Part shown: positions 9,515 to 23,431 of the stretch, in pieces
Position numbering within the stretch: the stretch's first letter is position 1
Layout of the letters: the number at the start of each line of letters is the position of its first letter
Source of the DNA: Patescibacteria group bacterium
GTDB lineage: Bacteria > Patescibacteriota > Patescibacteriia > JACQRZ01
DNA length: 33,520 bases
Assembly (NCBI GenBank): GCA_038065255.1
Contig: JBBTRI010000019.1
Span: 4,968 to 38,487 of the forward strand
Direction: 5' to 3'
Translations under genes and position numbers: made by a program
Notes under the pieces: generated by a model
What the model was told of the DNA's origin: nothing
The model's input: only the letters and a program-made list of their open reading frames with translations
Database searches by the model: none

Positions 9515-9973
9515 ATGCCGCTTATCGCAACAAACAAACAAGCGTTTCATGATTACGATATCCTCGACACCTACGAGGCTGGTATTGTATTGCTTGGTCC
9601 TGAAGTCAAGTCGGTTCGAAACGGATCTATCAGTCTCAAGGGGAGCTATGTAAGCGTCCACGATGGCGAATTGTGGCTTATCAACGCGCATATCGGGCAC
9701 TATGCCTCTGCGCCAAAAAAAGGCATTGATCCCACACGTAGCCGCAAGCTCCTTGTGCAAAAACGGGAAATGAAGCATATTATAGGGAAATTAAGTACTG
9801 CAGGCTTGACAGTAGTGCCTCTGAAGGTATATACTGCAAGAAATCGGATCAAGCTCGAGATAGGCATCGGCCGTGGCCGAAAAACCTATGAGAAACGTGA
9901 GCTTTTGAAAAAACGATCCATCGACCGCGAAATCAGACAAGTGCTCAAACGAGGGGATGCCGGGTATCGATAG
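9515..9973 (+). CDS. smpB: SsrA-binding protein SmpB
   Basis: This 152-residue protein is of normal family length. It shows the SmpB core: NKQAFHDYDILDTYEAGIVLLGPEVKSVRNGSISLKGSYV, then ELWLINAHIGHYA, a TRSRKLLVQKREMKHI segment and GLTVVPLKVYTARNRIKLEIGIGRGRKTYEKR, with a basic tail. SmpB binds the tRNA-like domain of tmRNA and delivers it to stalled ribosomes. Its last seven codons plus the stop (9953-9973) are also the 5' end of the tmRNA gene, so the protein's partner RNA is encoded partly within its own reading frame. There is no clear Shine-Dalgarno sequence. Confidence 0.97.
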   Translation: MPLIATNKQAFHDYDILDTYEAGIVLLGPEVKSVRNGSISLKGSYVSVHDGELWLINAHIGHYASAPKKGIDPTRSRKLLVQKREMKHIIGKLSTAGLTVVPLKVYTARNRIKLEIGIGRGRKTYEKRELLKKRSIDREIRQVLKRGDAGYR

Positions 9974-10360
9974 GGGCATCAATAGAATAGAACGCACGTC
10001 GAGGATGGCTGCTCTTCCTCGTAAATCCTTACAGCCAACCATTCAAATGCAAACGCATTTGTAGGCAAGCTCCGGGCGCTTGCATCAGCATTCGTCCCGA
10101 ACTTTGCTCTCGCAGTAGCGTAATCACGCAGCTGCCATCGGTACTTTTGACTCCTGATAAAAAGCTTCCGGTGTAATATCATCAGGATAGGGCGGCAGCT
10201 CTCGCAATCGGCTGCCATCCAAACCATCTTGATTTGCGCGTCATATGCCGTGGGTGTCGATTCCTTCATGGCATATGATTGAAATGATAATCGACTAAAC
10301 GTGTAGTGCTTTGTTTTATTGGCCAACTAGACGCGGGTTCAACTCCCGCCATCTCCACCA
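9953..10360 (+). ncRNA. ssrA: tmRNA
   Basis: This is a one-piece tmRNA of 408 nt. The 5' end GGGGATG (9953-9959) pairs with CATCTCC (10350-10356), followed by discriminator A and an encoded CCA (to 10360). A D-arm-like GGGTATCGATAGGG follows at 9962-9975. The T arm is CGGGTTCAACTCCCG. Helix P2 forms between about 9980-10000 and 10292-10321 (CAATA/TATTG and GCACGT/ACGTGT). Pseudoknot PK1 is at 10000-10040: CGAGGA/TCCTCG, with the loop TGGCTG matching CAGCCA. The tag frame opens at GCA 10055 and ends at a TAA after 24 residues (starts ANAFVGKL, ends NFALAVA), a protease-degron-like hydrophobic end. The first 21 nt lie inside smpB. Confidence 0.95.
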
Positions 10361-16115: not shown

Positions 16116-16700
16116 ATGAAAAACTACCATCTCATTCCGACTGTTATTGAAAAATCGCATCAGGGTGAACGTGCGTATGATATCTATTCCCGCCTTCTCA
16201 AAGAGCGCATTATTTTTTTGGGAAATGCCATCGATGATGACATTGCAAATACCGTTATTGCACAACTACTGTTCCTGGAATCAGAAGACAAAAACAAAGA
16301 TATCAAGCTGTATGTCAATTCGCCGGGCGGATCGGTTACAGCCGGCTTGGCCATCTACGACACGATGAATTACATCAAGCCGGATGTTTCCACGATTTGC
16401 GTTGGCATGGCGGCTTCCATGGGAGCGGTGCTATTGGCAGGGGGGCAGAAGGGCAAACGGTTCTGCTTGCCGAATGCCGAAGTGATGATCCACCAAGTGA
16501 TGGGCGGCGTAGAAGGCCAAGCAACCGATATCCGAATCAAAGCCGAACATATTCTGAAAATAAAAGCTCGCCTCAATGATATTCTTGCACAACATACCGG
16601 ACAGTCGATGGACAAGATAGAAAAAGATACCGACCGCGACTATTTCATGAGCGCGGAAGAAGCAAAGAAGTACGGTATCGTAGATATAATTATTTCGTAA
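16116..16700 (+). CDS. clpP: ClpP protease subunit
   Basis: This 194-residue serine peptidase of family S14 forms the tetradecameric barrel of Clp proteases. The catalytic triad is visible: Ser101 in GMAASMGA, His126 in MIHQVMGG and Asp175 in DTDRDYFMS. The oxyanion-forming NSPGGSV is at residues 68-74. An N-terminal [22 protein letters not shown] matches mature ClpP, with no propeptide of note. It follows rbfA by 12 bp and is closed by a hairpin at 16722-16745. Clp proteases also degrade tmRNA-tagged proteins, which fits the smpB-ssrA pair upstream. Confidence 0.98.
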
Positions 16701-16721
16701 GCTATTCTTGACACTACTCCG

Positions 16722-16749
16722 CAAGCCCTTGACAGCAGGGGCTTGTTTC
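16722..16749 (+). terminator. Terminator after clpP
   Basis: CAAGCCC (16722-16728) pairs with GGGCTTG (16739-16745) and is followed by TTTCG. It lies 22 bp past the clpP stop. The loop and right arm also hold the -35 of the next gene's promoter. Confidence 0.6.
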
Positions 16750-16756
16750 GTGTTAA
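16729..16756 (+). promoter_or_regulatory. Promoter of the M49-like peptidase gene
   Basis: TTGACA (16729-16734), then 16 bp, then TGTTAA (16751-16756) puts the start near 16763, ahead of the ATG at 16780. The box lies within the clpP terminator, and this supports 16780 rather than the upstream TTG at 16708 as the true start. Confidence 0.5.
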
Positions 16757-16779
16757 CTGGAACGTATTCGAACATTACA

Positions 16780-18372
16780 ATGAAAACTGCATTGAGCATT
16801 CACGATCGGCTTTCACGCGTACACTTCTTCGACCATGTAGTAGACTTGAGTAAAACACCCCTCTCCAACATTGAAATTCTGGCTCTTGGCTGCTGCATCA
16901 AGGCAGCCGAAAGAATGACAGAATTGTATGTCAGCCAGACGGGAAAAAAGAGTTCAGACCTTTTCTTCAAGTACATGAACGAGCAGCGCAATCCCGAAGG
17001 CAGAGCAATCTTTCGGTACCTTCAAGTCCATGGCAGCCCTTGGGACAGTTTTGACCATGATGAACCGTTTGTTCCGGGAATAGGACGACGCCCTGCCAAA
17101 GGTCCATTCTATCCAACCGGCCTAACGCAAGATGAATGGGATGCCTGGCTGCAAGCGCATCCTGACGACAAAGAAGCATTCGAATCCCCCTATACGGTAA
17201 TCGAGCGCGGGCGCGACGGACTTGTGGCAGTACCCTATCACAACCACTACAGCCCCCTTCTTACCGAAGCTGCGAATTTCCTTGAAGTCGGAGCGACATA
17301 TCTCCAAGAAGGTCCACTGAAAACCTATCTTGAACTCCGTGCACAGACATTCAAAGGCACTGCGAGCTATTTTGATAGCGATAGTGCCTGGGTAGACACT
17401 CGTGGTGAACCGTTTGAAATCACTCTCGGCCCCTGCGAGACATACATTGACGATCAGTTCCTTGGTCTCAAGTCTGCGTTCGAAGCATATATCGGCATTC
17501 CCAACCGGGAAGCGACCGAGATGCTCCAGCAATTCAACCAACCAGCCGCTGAATTCGACCGGCTTCTCGCACAAGAGTATCCATTCGAGCCACGGCCGGC
17601 TGGCCCTATGATCGTATTAGATGACGTGTATCGGGGAGGTGAGGCACGTTTCGGACGCATGTTCGTTGCGGCAAATCTACCGAATGATCGAAAGATCCAC
17701 AATCTTAAAGGATCGAAAAAGATCTTTAGCCGCACCATGCTTTCCGCAAAGTTCGGCAATGTCGGGGTTCCAATCGCACAACGAATTCTTCATCCTGCCG
17801 ACCAAGCTTATTGCACAGTCGAAAACCGCCTAGCCTCCAATGTCGGACATGAGCTTTCCCATGGCATGGGTCCCACCGGCATCATGCGGGATGGTGAACT
17901 CATTCGATTCGGCGTCATCCTCAAAGACCTTCACTCAATGATCGAGGAAGCAAAAGCAGACATGCTGGGTATACGATTTCTCCACCATTGCTGCACAAGC
18001 GGTATTCTTGGCATGGATACAGTTAAGGGAGCGATTGCCACTGAGCTCATATGCACTATCATGGGACTGCGCAAGAGCTTTACGGAAGCGCATGCCCGCG
18101 GCAATCTCGTGCAGTACAACTGGCTGAAAAATACCGGTGCATGGCGCTATAATGAATCGACCGGATGCTATACGATCAACTATGATGTTGCTCTGAACGG
18201 CATGATTATGCTCAGCGATGCGTTTTTGCGCTTGCAGCTTGGAGGTAGCTACGATGCTGCCCGAGAATTCGTAGAGACGTGGGGTAGTATCCCTCCCGAA
18301 CTCGTGCAAATCGTGAAATCTCTGTCGGACATCCCCCTCGAAGTCCATCCACGTTTCGATATTGCGGGATAG
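16780..18372 (+). CDS. Dipeptidyl peptidase III-like zinc peptidase
   Basis: The product has 530 residues from the ATG at 16780. An upstream TTG at 16708 would overlap the terminator and promoter. The zinc site is seen as HELSHGMGP (His357-Glu358-x-x-His361) with a second motif EEAKAD at 389-394, giving the third zinc ligand (Glu). This pairing is that of gluzincin family M49. Classical DPP III has HEXXGH, while this protein has a plain HEXXH, as in the DPP III-like domain of plant NUDT3-type proteins (HECCHGIGP). It would cleave short peptides in the cytosol, as no signal peptide is seen. It stands alone between its own promoter and a terminator. Confidence 0.8.
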   Translation: MKTALSIHDRLSRVHFFDHVVDLSKTPLSNIEILALGCCIKAAERMTELYVSQTGKKSSDLFFKYMNEQRNPEGRAIFRYLQVHGSPWDSFDHDEPFVPGIGRRPAKGPFYPTGLTQDEWDAWLQAHPDDKEAFESPYTVIERGRDGLVAVPYHNHYSPLLTEAANFLEVGATYLQEGPLKTYLELRAQTFKGTASYFDSDSAWVDTRGEPFEITLGPCETYIDDQFLGLKSAFEAYIGIPNREATEMLQQFNQPAAEFDRLLAQEYPFEPRPAGPMIVLDDVYRGGEARFGRMFVAANLPNDRKIHNLKGSKKIFSRTMLSAKFGNVGVPIAQRILHPADQAYCTVENRLASNVGHELSHGMGPTGIMRDGELIRFGVILKDLHSMIEEAKADMLGIRFLHHCCTSGILGMDTVKGAIATELICTIMGLRKSFTEAHARGNLVQYNWLKNTGAWRYNESTGCYTINYDVALNGMIMLSDAFLRLQLGGSYDAAREFVETWGSIPPELVQIVKSLSDIPLEVHPRFDIAG

Positions 18373-18389
18373 AACCACACACATCATTC

Positions 18390-18411
18390 GACCCCTATGG
18401 GGTCTTTTTTT
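18390..18411 (+). terminator. Terminator after M49-like gene
   Basis: A 6-bp stem GACCCC/GGGGTC (18390-18395 with 18399-18404) and a 3-nt loop are followed by seven T residues, 18 bp past the stop codon. Confidence 0.85.
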
Positions 18412-18523
18412 ATTATAATCATCACTCCTTGCCAAACGGACGTTTTTCTGCTACGCTTGACGCATACCTTAATTAGTAAATCCCACTTCAGACCTGAATG
18501 TGCTTGTATCAAAGGTATTGAGT

Positions 18524-18628
18524 ATGACGAACAACACTTTTGCCATGACTATTGCTGTTGACCTCATTTACGGCCTGCACGCCCAAAACCATGCAGGGTT
18601 TCTTCGTATTGCGAAAGGTGAGCGCTAA
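18524..18628 (+). CDS. Possible 34-residue small ORF
   Basis: This frame lies in the 295-bp gap between the M49-like gene and rny. It starts MTNNTFAMTIAVDLIYGL and ends with a basic RIAKGER. AAAGG lies 8 bp before the ATG. A TTGACG at about 18457 could be part of a promoter. No homologue is recognised. It could equally be part of the rny leader, and evidence for translation is weak. Confidence 0.25.
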   Translation: MTNNTFAMTIAVDLIYGLHAQNHAGFLRIAKGER

Positions 18629-18667
18629 TACTTCAACTATTACACTACAAAGCACTTCACTCTCCTG

Positions 18668-20212
18668 ATGTCGGGAATCGGAGTGATGTTTATGTTTAGT
18701 GCATTATTTATCGGAGTCGCCTTCCTCGTCCTCGGCGGACTGGTTGGCTACTACATTCGAAAACAGGTGGGCATCAACCAGATCAATTCCGCCGAAAGCA
18801 AAGCGGAAAAGATCTTTACGGATGCCAAAGCAAAGGAAAGTGAAATCCTGCTTCAAGCGCGTGATAAAGCAATCGGCATTATTGATAGTGCCAAAAAAGA
18901 TGAAGAATCGCGGCGCAGGGAATTTAACCATGCGCAAACAAGGCTCGAACGCCGCGAAGCGCTCTTTGACCAGAAGCTTCTGGAAATTCAAGAAAAACAG
19001 CAGAAGATCCAAGACAAAGCAACTCAGATTGAAGAAATAAAAACAAGCATCCAGACAATCAAACAGGAGCAGCTTGCCAAGCTCGAGCGTATTGCCGAGC
19101 TCACACGCGAACAGGCAAAGCAAGTCCTGCTCGAAAGCGTTGAGCGTGAAGCCAAAGAGGAAGTGCTGGAGCGCATAAAAAAAATCCAAAAAGAAGGCAC
19201 GGAAGATATGGCAAGTAAGGCTCGCCATGTAATCGTGGATGCCATGCAGCGCTGTGCCATGTCTGTGGTGTCCGAAGTGACCACATCATCAGTACCACTC
19301 CCATCAGATGAAATGAAGGGAAGAATTATCGGCAAAGAAGGAAGGAATATCAAAACGCTCGAAAATCTTACCGGGGTGGAAATATTGATTGACGATACAC
19401 CCAATGCAATCACTCTTTCAAGCTTCAGCCTTATCCGACGCCAGGTTGCAAAAATGACCATTGAAAAACTTGTGAAAGACGGGCGCATTCACCCGGGCCG
19501 CATTGAAGAATACCTTGAACAATCGAAGCAAGAGCTAGCGCTGGACATCAAAAAGGCCGGGGAAGACGCGCTCTTTGCGCTGGGCGTTACAGGAATCGAC
19601 CCCCGCCTCGTGCCGATTTTAGGGAGACTGAAATTCCGTGCGAGCTTTGGCCAGAACGCACTCGTCCACTCCATGGAAGTTGCCTACCTTGCGAATTTCC
19701 TTGCAGAAGAATTGGGTGCTGATGTGCTTGTCTGCAAAAAAGGCGGACTCCTCCATGACATCGGTAAAGCCGTCGACCATGAGGTCCAGGGAAGCCATCC
19801 GCAAATCGGCTATGACATTCTCAAAAAATTCGGTTTTCCGGAAGAAATTGCCTACATGTGTATTGCCCACCATGAAGACAATCCGCATACCCTTGAAGGT
19901 GTTATCGTGAAAGTTGCCGATGCGCTTTCGGCAAGCAGGCCGGGTGCACGCCGCGACAGCGTAGAACGCTACGTGCAACGCATTACCGAACTTGAGGGGC
20001 TTGCGACAAGTTTTTCGGGTGTTGATAAAGCCTATGCCATCCAAGCCGGGCGTGAAATTCGCGTCTTCGTGAAGCCGGATGAAATTGATGATGTCAATGC
20101 ATACAAGCTTGCAAAAGAAATTGCAAGGCGCATCGAAGAACAACTCCAGTATCCCGGTGAATTACGCATTACACTCATCCGGGAAAAAAGAATTATAGAG
20201 TACGCAAAATAA
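18668..20212 (+). CDS. rny: Ribonuclease Y
   Basis: This 514-residue protein is of usual family length. An N-terminal membrane segment at about residues 8-28 (FSALFIGVAFLVLGGLVGYYI) is followed by a long charged coiled coil to about 190. A KH domain follows with GRIIGKEGRN (218-227), then an HD domain with LLHDIGKAVDHE (His363-Asp364) and IAHHEDNPH. RNase Y is the membrane-bound endonuclease that starts mRNA decay in many bacteria lacking RNase E. It is the first gene of rny-ymdB-HU. Confidence 0.97.
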   Translation: MSGIGVMFMFSALFIGVAFLVLGGLVGYYIRKQVGINQINSAESKAEKIFTDAKAKESEILLQARDKAIGIIDSAKKDEESRRREFNHAQTRLERREALFDQKLLEIQEKQQKIQDKATQIEEIKTSIQTIKQEQLAKLERIAELTREQAKQVLLESVEREAKEEVLERIKKIQKEGTEDMASKARHVIVDAMQRCAMSVVSEVTTSSVPLPSDEMKGRIIGKEGRNIKTLENLTGVEILIDDTPNAITLSSFSLIRRQVAKMTIEKLVKDGRIHPGRIEEYLEQSKQELALDIKKAGEDALFALGVTGIDPRLVPILGRLKFRASFGQNALVHSMEVAYLANFLAEELGADVLVCKKGGLLHDIGKAVDHEVQGSHPQIGYDILKKFGFPEEIAYMCIAHHEDNPHTLEGVIVKVADALSASRPGARRDSVERYVQRITELEGLATSFSGVDKAYAIQAGREIRVFVKPDEIDDVNAYKLAKEIARRIEEQLQYPGELRITLIREKRIIEYAK

Positions 20213-21407: not shown

Positions 21408-22475
21408 TCACAGCACTGATTCCTCCTTTAACGCTTTTTGTAATGTTTCTACAACATGAGTCCGTTGACTGTTTTTCCGTACTTTTTCAAGTACTTGATC
21501 TTGCAGTGCCGCAATATCTTCTTGAGAATAAAGTCCGCTATCAAGCAACTGGGATACAATAGCTGAAAATCGTGCTTTTTGCGCATACAGAACATACTCC
21601 GAAAATCCCTGAATAAAAGCTTTGGTATAATCCCCCAGAGGGGCTTCTGAAATGCTTTTTGCCAACAACCCAATGAGAGAGCGCTGAATGTCTGGCTCCT
21701 TGCACACATTCTTTATTTCCGGAAGCGTCGCAACACCTAGATATGCCGCTCTCCGGACAATTTCTTCAAGTTGCGTACCGACATGGGGAAAGAGGGCAAT
21801 GTATCCACTTGAAGTTTTTGGCTTTTGGAAAAGCGCAAGAATCGCAGTTTTGCATGCCAAAAGAACGGTTTCTTTTTCCTTGTGGGTTTCTTCATCGCGC
21901 GTATCGGGAGAAAAATGCCGTTGAAGGATGGGATTTTTAAGGCGTTTCATTTCTTTCTCAAGAATATCAAGATATGTCATTCCTTTTTGCTCCATTGCCT
22001 CCAATTGCTGAACGTCAAACAATCTGCGCATACCGGACGGAAACACCTTATCTTCAACGAACCGCGAATCAGCCGATAGCATTTCAGAAAGTTTCTGAAT
22101 ATTCTGTTCGCGCACCCATTTTGAAATATGTTCGAGCGCCAGACTGCGTGCATGCCTCCCCCCTTCGAATGTGCGTATTTTATCGGTCATTGTATCAAGT
22201 AGATCATAGTCGCCTCGTTCAAGGGCCTCATGCGCAATGCCGTCCCAGCGAAGTGTTTCTTTTTGATCCTTTTTATCAATGCGATTTGATCCCCTTCTAG
22301 CAAGCGCTTCCGTAAGAGATGCTTCGCCATGAGTAAGTAGGTTTACAAACATCTCATCGGCAATACGCTTGGCATAGGTTTCCGATGCGCTTTCACCTCT
22401 TTTTTTACCTATTTTTTCGTATCTCTTCTGCGAATCGCGCTCAAGCGCATTGAAGGATTTTTCTAGTGTATTCAT
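21408..22475 (-). CDS. Hypothetical helical protein
   Basis: This 355-residue protein is highly charged and predicted to be mainly alpha-helical, with no signal peptide or membrane segment. I recognise no family. Helices such as QKGMTYLDILEKEMKRLK and ILALFQKPKTSS, and a repeated Leu/Ile spacing in the C-terminal third, suggest an armadillo-like helical scaffold, but this is only an impression. It stands alone, convergent with the HU operon, with a promoter at 22497-22526 and the bidirectional terminator 6 bp after its stop. Confidence 0.65.
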   Translation of the reverse strand: MNTLEKSFNALERDSQKRYEKIGKKRGESASETYAKRIADEMFVNLLTHGEASLTEALARRGSNRIDKKDQKETLRWDGIAHEALERGDYDLLDTMTDKIRTFEGGRHARSLALEHISKWVREQNIQKLSEMLSADSRFVEDKVFPSGMRRLFDVQQLEAMEQKGMTYLDILEKEMKRLKNPILQRHFSPDTRDEETHKEKETVLLACKTAILALFQKPKTSSGYIALFPHVGTQLEEIVRRAAYLGVATLPEIKNVCKEPDIQRSLIGLLAKSISEAPLGDYTKAFIQGFSEYVLYAQKARFSAIVSQLLDSGLYSQEDIAALQDQVLEKVRKNSQRTHVVETLQKALKEESVL

Positions 22476-22496
22476 AGAGTTTTATATACTACGTGC

Positions 22497-22526
22497 AGTA
22501 TATCAAAATACGCATGCGCTACGCAA
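22497..22526 (-). promoter_or_regulatory. Promoter of the helical protein gene
   Basis: On the minus strand TTGCGT (about 22521-22526) and TATACT (22497-22502), 18 bp apart, lie 22 bp before the ATG at 22475. It sits 19 bp beyond the end of the upstream terminator. Confidence 0.5.
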
Positions 22527-22544
22527 GGAAAGTTTTATTGGAAT

Positions 22545-22604
22545 AAAAAAAGGAAGCAGGGGTTGGTATCCGACGAGGGGGTCGGACCAGGGTGGTGTGC
22601 TTCC
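22545..22604 (-). terminator. Large terminator hairpin of the candidate RNA unit
   Basis: GGAAGCA/TGCTTCC (22552-22558 with 22598-22604) closes a long helix that continues as TGGT and TCCGAC/GTCGGA (22569-22574 with 22581-22586). On the minus strand it is followed by seven T residues (22545-22551). It is a strong intrinsic terminator for leftward transcription. Confidence 0.8.
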
Positions 22605-23246
22605 ATTTGTTGGGGGGGCTTGCAGAGAGTTCGGCTTGGATTTGGCTTTGCAACCAAACAAGATTCCTACTTTCTCTGCTATGAAATTTTCAAAGTACCG
22701 GGGTTGAGGGGGAGGTCTAGGGCTAGGTCGGTAGACGATTATCGATTGTACGCTTGGATGGCCTCCATCCGCCTCGTCGGTCGAACCTGTGCGTAGCCAA
22801 TAGCATACGCGTAGTCCAAGCCGGTGTCGAGGTTTTTCTGGAACTCTCCGAGATTGACCTGCGGCTGCCCGCAGTCTTCCCGATGAGACTCTACCGTGGC
22901 GGGATTACAAAGAGTGATGCCGCATCCGCACAAAATCATTGCTAAATTTCTCCGCTTACACTGGTGCGTTACAACTGCATCATTTCTGATGAACAGCGTT
23001 GTGGGCTTCAATCCAATAGGATTGCGACCCACAACGATAGCCACCAACTACACTAAAAAGAGCGAAAAGGCTGTAGAGGCAAGCATTATATGAAGTAGCT
23101 GCGGCGGGTGGTCCGCGATGGGAATGAATGCCACATTATCTTCAAAGCGCTTATATATCCTCTTACCTTCTGGTTGGCCCCGAAGGGCACAATGGATGGA
23201 AAGTGGACTCTCTCCTCTACACTCTTTTCGCTCCTGGAGAATTTTT

Positions 23247-23260
23247 GTTATAGATATAAC
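23247..23260. repeat. 14-bp palindrome near start of candidate RNA
   Basis: GTTATAGATATAAC is an inverted repeat with 6-bp arms and a 2-bp centre, about 25-38 nt into the predicted transcript. It could be an operator or a small hairpin. Confidence 0.5.
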
Positions 23261-23290
23261 CTTTTTGAAGGGTACATACTCGATGCCATA

Positions 23291-23319
23291 AGTATACCAC
23301 ACTTTGAATAGTTTGTCAA
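23291..23319 (-). promoter_or_regulatory. Strong consensus promoter for the candidate RNA
   Basis: On the minus strand TTGACA (23314-23319), 17 bp of spacer and TATACT (23291-23296), preceded by TG two bases upstream of the -10, make a near-ideal sigma70-type promoter. It is among the strongest in the window, and no convincing protein gene follows it. Confidence 0.75.
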
Positions 23320-23404
23320 GTGTCTATAGTGCGTATTTTATAAATGTATTATGGTTATAATGAAAATAGTATATAAAAGTGTAAACTTCCTTATTGATAT
23401 AATG

Positions 23405-23431
23405 AAAAAAGCACTGGATCAAATCCAGTGC
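23405..23431 (-). terminator. Terminator of the liv-acyltransferase operon
   Basis: GCACTGGAT/ATCCAGTGC (23411-23419 with 23423-23431) has a 3-nt loop and is followed on the minus strand by six T residues. It lies 22 bp beyond the acyltransferase stop. Confidence 0.9.

Follow-up and report, generated by a model that had tools for sequence, protein, structure and literature searches.

Our analysis supports the conclusion that a region of about 740 nt on the minus strand of the window (the whole stretch of 33,520 nt that was analyzed, from contig JBBTRI010000019.1 of a Patescibacteria group bacterium) encodes a stand-alone, highly structured RNA and not a protein message. This RNA is a divergent member of a class found in at least 15 related genomes. 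No earlier description of such an RNA was found in Rfam 15 or in a limited search of open-licence papers, and on that basis we regard the class as previously undescribed; the novelty claimed is that of an RNA class whose core and motif are its own, not that of a biochemical activity. Its members most likely are regulatory RNAs that act through an eight-letter signal, GGAGAGAG.

Transcription of the region is inferred from its two ends. A promoter scan placed TTGACA-17-TATACT with an extended -10 element (TG ahead of the -10) at 23291..23319 on the minus strand. The first-pass annotation, made from the letters alone, had called this promoter perfect; the -35 element is indeed perfect, but the -10 element is off by one base, which gives 11 of 12 consensus bases. 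The strong terminator that was said to close the region is borne out by sequence and fold: a two-tier hairpin (GGAAGCA..TGCTTCC) with a run of T (U in the RNA) occupies 22604-22545 of the same strand. A simple terminator scan omits it because the hairpin loop is too long for the scan. The predicted non-coding RNA bounded by these elements is about 739 nt long (22546..23284, minus strand).

The RNA has a minimum free energy (MFE) of -250.5 kcal/mol, corresponding to a z score of -7.4 on the transcribed strand versus -3.3 on the opposite strand. None of the shuffles folded as well, and among the long gaps of the genome it is on a par with RNase P RNA and tmRNA. All of the structures listed at first reading (a UUCG stem, a GNRA-capped stem, a long-range helix, a hairpin, and a three-way junction) are present with high pair probabilities. 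Along the minus strand, a 5' leader hairpin (23252..23280; mean pair probability, 0.86) is followed by domain A (23058..23235; z -6.1), the conserved unit of the class, which consists of helices P1 and P2, a purine junction, and two arms and is supported by the leave-out scan and the covariation described below. P1 pairs 23224..23234 with 23069-23059, and P2 pairs 23214..23221 (UGUAGAGG) with 23079-23072 (CCUCUACA), as indicated by fold and covariation. Both lie in the long-range helix 23235-23214/23079-23058, which has 20 pairs and a mean pair probability of 0.98. The GGAGAGAG motif is at 23208..23215, and its AGAGAG (23213-23208) forms the purine junction after P2. Within the long-range helix sits the three-way junction, with arm 1 (23157..23208) capped by UUCG in a stem at 23192-23174 and arm 2 at 23080..23153. 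Domain B (22609..23048) is predicted by folding to contain a closing helix (23048-23039/22620-22609), a hairpin (23036-22997; pair probability, 0.98), a GAAA-capped stem (22996-22975), and a junction domain (22974-22746). No homologues of domain B were found, and a model of its junction (R2) had no match in 38 relatives.

The first-pass annotation had reported no convincing gene in these roughly 740 nt and had favored a large non-coding RNA over an mRNA, and both statements hold: codon usage, frame length, and family searches give no coding signal, and the RNA folds much better than its shuffles (z -7.4). In codon usage, the 102- and 84-codon frames both have log-odds of -0.02, a value between those of shadow frames (-0.11 +/- 0.10) and those of the known window genes (0.06 to 0.25 for nearly all, with one at -0.02); training on the whole genome gave -0.01 and +0.07, respectively. 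The open-frame length is ordinary compared with that in dinucleotide shuffles (p 0.16; p 0.05 with one stop allowed), and the frames have no match in Pfam, NCBIfam, or PHROG. One might still suppose that there is no functional RNA here, only a decayed coding region or a chance structure, given that one frame is open across 188 codons with a single stop and that transcription is deduced from a promoter and a terminator. This supposition is already contradicted by the z score, by an open frame that is ordinary for its composition, by a covarying unit common to other genomes, and by a leave-out score of 61 versus 10 (see below), and we consider it very improbable.

An Rfam search of the region, set beforehand as a possible refutation, yielded no match beyond chance at E <= 10 in 22450-23420 among 4,227 families, which agrees with the initial listing of the RNA as a candidate undescribed one. 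RNase P RNA (RF00010) is similar to the window RNA in size, in the complexity of its fold, and in a superficially similar GAGGA(G/A)AGUCC stretch; however, the RNase P models (conserved core, P4) are unmatched in the region, and the search places the RNase P RNA of this genome on contig C10 (E 2.8e-44). Identity with tmRNA or SRP RNA was likewise tested with Rfam and rejected; the tmRNA of this genome lies elsewhere in the window. The tmRNA (9953-10360, plus strand; 128 bits by Rfam) is found just after a smpB-like gene and was missed by ARAGORN. The small bacterial SRP RNA model RF00169 had no match in this 99% complete genome, two contigs of which were read as N. DNA similarity searches against phage and plasmid sequences and against 381 genomes of the same bacterial class gave only short matches of chance length. 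The window RNA is absent from the YmdB locus in ten genomes of the same family, and none of the close relatives has the locus. No Rfam match at gathering score was found among 19 loci of the RNA class.

Relatives were sought by reading the whole genome (1,091,771 bases) and folding its long gaps. One gap (C3:51213-51716; L190 11213-11716, plus strand) folds exceptionally (z -12.4, from 8 shuffles only) and has UGUAGAGGAGRGAG...CCUCUACAG in common with the window RNA. A covariance model built from domain A of the window RNA alone (R1, a single sequence) and run over the whole genome finds this paralogue at L190:11229-11406 (E 1.3e-4). The paralogue unit has the same length as that of the window and shows compensatory changes in P1; it is located directly after a 146-aa gene, has AUCUCUCUCCUC in its 3' part, and lacks a strict promoter of its own. 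In a megabase of sequence from other loci, R1 identified a further unit (L080:6988-7157; E 0.0041) in Patescibacteria contig JAHIRY010000027.1, between clpP and ftsK and immediately behind a TTGACA-17-TATACT promoter. The single-sequence R1 found no other member in whole-genome searches; these negatives are weak because the paralogue, found by direct search, was also missed.

The window unit, the C3 paralogue, and the L080 unit were combined into a model (R3) with the structure limited to P1 and P2. In the 381 class genomes, R3 added 17 units from 15 additional genomes, with E-values from 1.8e-9 to 3e-3. Members at E <= 1e-4 are in G192, G178 (two copies), G098, G270, G085, G141, G346, G284, G231, G147, G267, G193, and G296; G094 matches at 8e-4, with a second unit at 1e-5 in a smaller search, and G081 matches at 2e-3. 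Because this search used stricter filters and its E-values are rough, being from a short calibration, other lines of evidence matter. Several candidates were discarded: (i) G312 (L360) proved to be a false positive, an inverted repeat rich in A+T that lacks the motif, (ii) two structured gaps in contig C1 proved to be G+C-rich genes, and (iii) pattern hits in viral contigs, for which only GAGGAGRGAG..CCTCTNCA was required, are chance matches. The P1-like flanks of the 120 viral hits mostly form 7 to 8 of 12 pairs, versus 11 to 12 in true members, and the one hit that reaches 11 of 12 overlaps coding sequence.

The cleanest membership test is a leave-out scan, in which the score was built from 18 units of other genomes and run on the genome of the window, because neither the window locus nor the paralogue contributed to the score. 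The two highest scores were those of the window locus (61.3 bits) and the C3 paralogue (58.1 bits); the best other place reached 10.1 bits. The unit of P1, P2 (UGUAGAGG/CCUCUACA), and the AGAGAG junction is present at the window locus, as is an upstream sigma-70 promoter in the same orientation, by which the class is also defined; 85 nt separate the -35 element from the conserved unit. We are highly confident that the window RNA belongs to the GGAGAGAG class.

The unit common to the class consists of an 11-bp helix (P1), an 8-bp helix (P2), and the purine junction AGAGAG, and the GGAGAGAG signal is near-invariant across 20 units. In these units, 13 of the 19 pairs of P1 and P2 change on both sides; 91.8% of the cells are paired (71.5% shuffled and 47 to 57% with slid partners), and the covariation score is 0.628 (0.224 shuffled and 0.13 to 0.18 slid), counts that are biased toward structure since the rows are model hits. 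At 17 of the 18 loci, the upstream 500 nt include a strict promoter in the same orientation, whereas the expected number per locus is 0.061. Transcripts of members carry 21 extra copies of GGAGRGAG, compared with 0.34 +/- 0.54 in shuffles, and 9 copies of CTCTCTCC, compared with 0.15 +/- 0.38; the control, 900 nt upstream of the promoters, has one GGAGRGAG and no CTCTCTCC. Extra GGAGAGAG copies occur in 12 of 18 members, and an exact CUCUCUCC complement occurs in 9 of 18 loci.

There are two kinds of member, stand-alone RNAs and leaders ahead of gene strings. In five genomes (L344, L346, L350, L356, and L358), a stand-alone RNA is located between clpP and ftsK and carries between one and roughly four units in tandem, followed by a 3' domain that includes CUCUCUCC and by a terminator of its own; L356 exemplifies the motif complement, with GAGGAGAGAGGUU against AACCUCUCUCCUC. 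Downstream of this terminator, ftsK has its own conserved promoter, TATGNTAAAAT. The window RNA and the C3 paralogue resemble these stand-alone members. Since a 355-aa gene begins 70 nt past the terminator on the same strand and the class includes leader-type members, the window RNA could instead be a cis-acting leader of that gene, with the terminator at 22604-22545 as a conditional attenuator. We judge this improbable: a promoter-like TTGCGT-18-TATACT separates the gene from the terminator, no family could be assigned to the gene, whose sole weak relative is not beside such an RNA, and in the five clpP-ftsK loci the RNA ends at its own terminator before the conserved ftsK promoter. The encoded 355-aa orphan protein (21408-22475, minus strand) has no Pfam, NCBIfam, or PHROG family, and its one weak relative in the bacterial family is at L045 9064-10170; used as a tracer for the RNA, the gene led only to this relative, which lacks it.

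Most other loci have the order promoter, H1, H2, P1/P2 unit, and gene string. H1 is a hairpin with the ten-base loop NNGGAGAGAG, in which the motif is present in the form AAGGAGAGAG; its stem has a covariation score of 1.286 versus 0.291 (seven examples). H2, between H1 and the P1/P2 unit, resembles a terminator in having a hairpin and a U-run; its hairpin loop holds CUCUCUCC or a near form in L348, L352, L354, L355, and L359. Genes after leaders are often far richer in G+C than the genome. In L375, L376, L377, L381, L385, and L387, the gene strings directly behind the leaders have G+C contents about 0.10 to 0.20 above that of the genome. L376 and L387 have MoxR-like AAA and VWA genes behind the leader, and L375 has a VWA gene there. 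At five loci, a gene for a TrmB-like regulator is oriented divergently, and the one tested matches Pfam TrmB. The genome of the window itself has an H1-type hairpin, UAUCUA[AAGGAGAGAG]UGGAUG, on contig C15 near 36632 (minus strand; L210), with a 6-bp stem, behind a promoter and ahead of a G+C-rich gene.

Leaders of this kind, behind a strong promoter, with a terminator-like hairpin, and ahead of long gene strings whose G+C content is atypical (e.g., MoxR and VWA genes), recall EAR and put elements, which are likewise promoter-proximal structured leaders before long gene strings. The class might accordingly comprise processive antitermination elements, the RNA modifying RNA polymerase to read through the terminators of a long operon. 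Such a role is a little less probable still than attenuation, as the window RNA and the clpP-ftsK members each stop at a terminator of their own, after which no operon follows, and as Rfam shows no match to EAR or to other families. The class further differs from EAR and put in that its terminator hairpins are internal and carry CUCUCUCC in the loop and in that some members stand alone.

We propose instead that GGAGAGAG, presented in loops and junctions, would be the working part of these RNAs and would be recognized by a common partner, either a protein or the transcription machinery. Alternatively, to judge from complementarity alone, it may pair with CUCUCUCC of the same RNA, so that the motif is hidden or the terminator is changed. 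In the leaders, this switch would decide whether transcription gets past the terminator hairpin that precedes the genes; the RNAs that stand alone, that of the window among them, would present or titrate the same signal in trans. We lean slightly toward the explanation as a whole, which combines a structured class member, a GGAGAGAG/CUCUCUCC switch, and action in trans; the mechanism proposed for the class, taken by itself, is tentative and somewhat short of probable. It is weakest for the window RNA, in which the H1 loop hairpin and the H2 terminator of the leaders are absent, GGAGAGAG occurs in a single copy without extra ones, and the complement is 7 nt long and paired locally in the MFE structure. 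This complement, ACUCUCU (22630-22624, minus strand), faces AGAGAGU at 23213-23207 and is a candidate counterpart of CUCUCUCC in other members; the assignment is tentative because the exact CUCUCUCC is absent from the window RNA and because of the local pairing.

In Csr RNAs of the CsrB/RsmZ type, a GGA-containing motif is repeated in the hairpin loops of one RNA. The class resembles these sponges in that a GGA-containing motif (AAGGAGAGAG) is repeated in loops, but all eight bases of GGAGAGAG are conserved, not GGA alone, and there is no Rfam match. A tblastn search of the genome with one CsrA sequence gave no match at E <= 10, although a distant homologue could escape such a search. In an extended version of the proposed mechanism, the leaders of foreign G+C-rich gene strings and the stand-alone RNAs could constitute an RNA-based regulon that shares GGAGAGAG: a common trans factor would read the signal, the stand-alone RNAs would set the supply of the factor, and the leaders would switch by GGAGAGAG/CUCUCUCC loop-loop pairing at an intrinsic terminator. 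We find this extended version doubtful.

The repeated units plus a complementary element in one RNA, together with the large size and multidomain fold of the window RNA, could also point to a scaffold or multimer, in which GGAGAGAG and CUCUCUCC would pair as kissing loops or pseudoknots to form a large RNA particle that may or may not include proteins. OLE, ROOL, and GOLLD RNAs are large, ornate, and non-coding like the window RNA, their function is at best poorly known, and RNAs of this type homo-oligomerize via RNA-RNA contacts (PMC12286853). However, neither the window region nor the 19 loci match their models, no sequence relation to them was found, and the class differs from them in its small repeated units around GGAGAGAG and in having both stand-alone and leader forms. 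Furthermore, many members are leaders with a terminator-like hairpin before genes, which a scaffold would not need, and the window RNA has an inexact complement. A scaffold role is thus unlikely, if less so than attenuation or antitermination, and we favor regulation through GGAGAGAG.

Patescibacteria are reduced and mostly uncultured, and little is known of their gene regulation. A structured RNA class that has no Rfam family, is present in at least 16 genomes of one bacterial class, and combines a strictly conserved signal of eight bases with its own complement offers a testable handle on gene control in this group, and its covariance core and motif suffice to search further genomes.

Other structured regions were observed in the same genome. 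Two more large, strongly folded regions are present on the minus strand of C6:139456-141216 (end of L200 and start of L201). They have TTGACA-17-TATWCT promoters, lack genes, and match nothing in Rfam; R1 and R3 were negative for both. A structured gap behind a promoter at L223 1451-1716 (C4:81451-81716), which runs off the contig end, has ATTACCGTTTNACAAA in common with one of the C6 RNAs. Another such gap behind a promoter, C17:16433-16900 (L171), contains GGAGGGAG. Finally, a non-coding gap of 260 to 450 nt precedes RNase Y in most genomes of the family (window 16700-18668; L057-L066) and could hold an RNA or a leader.
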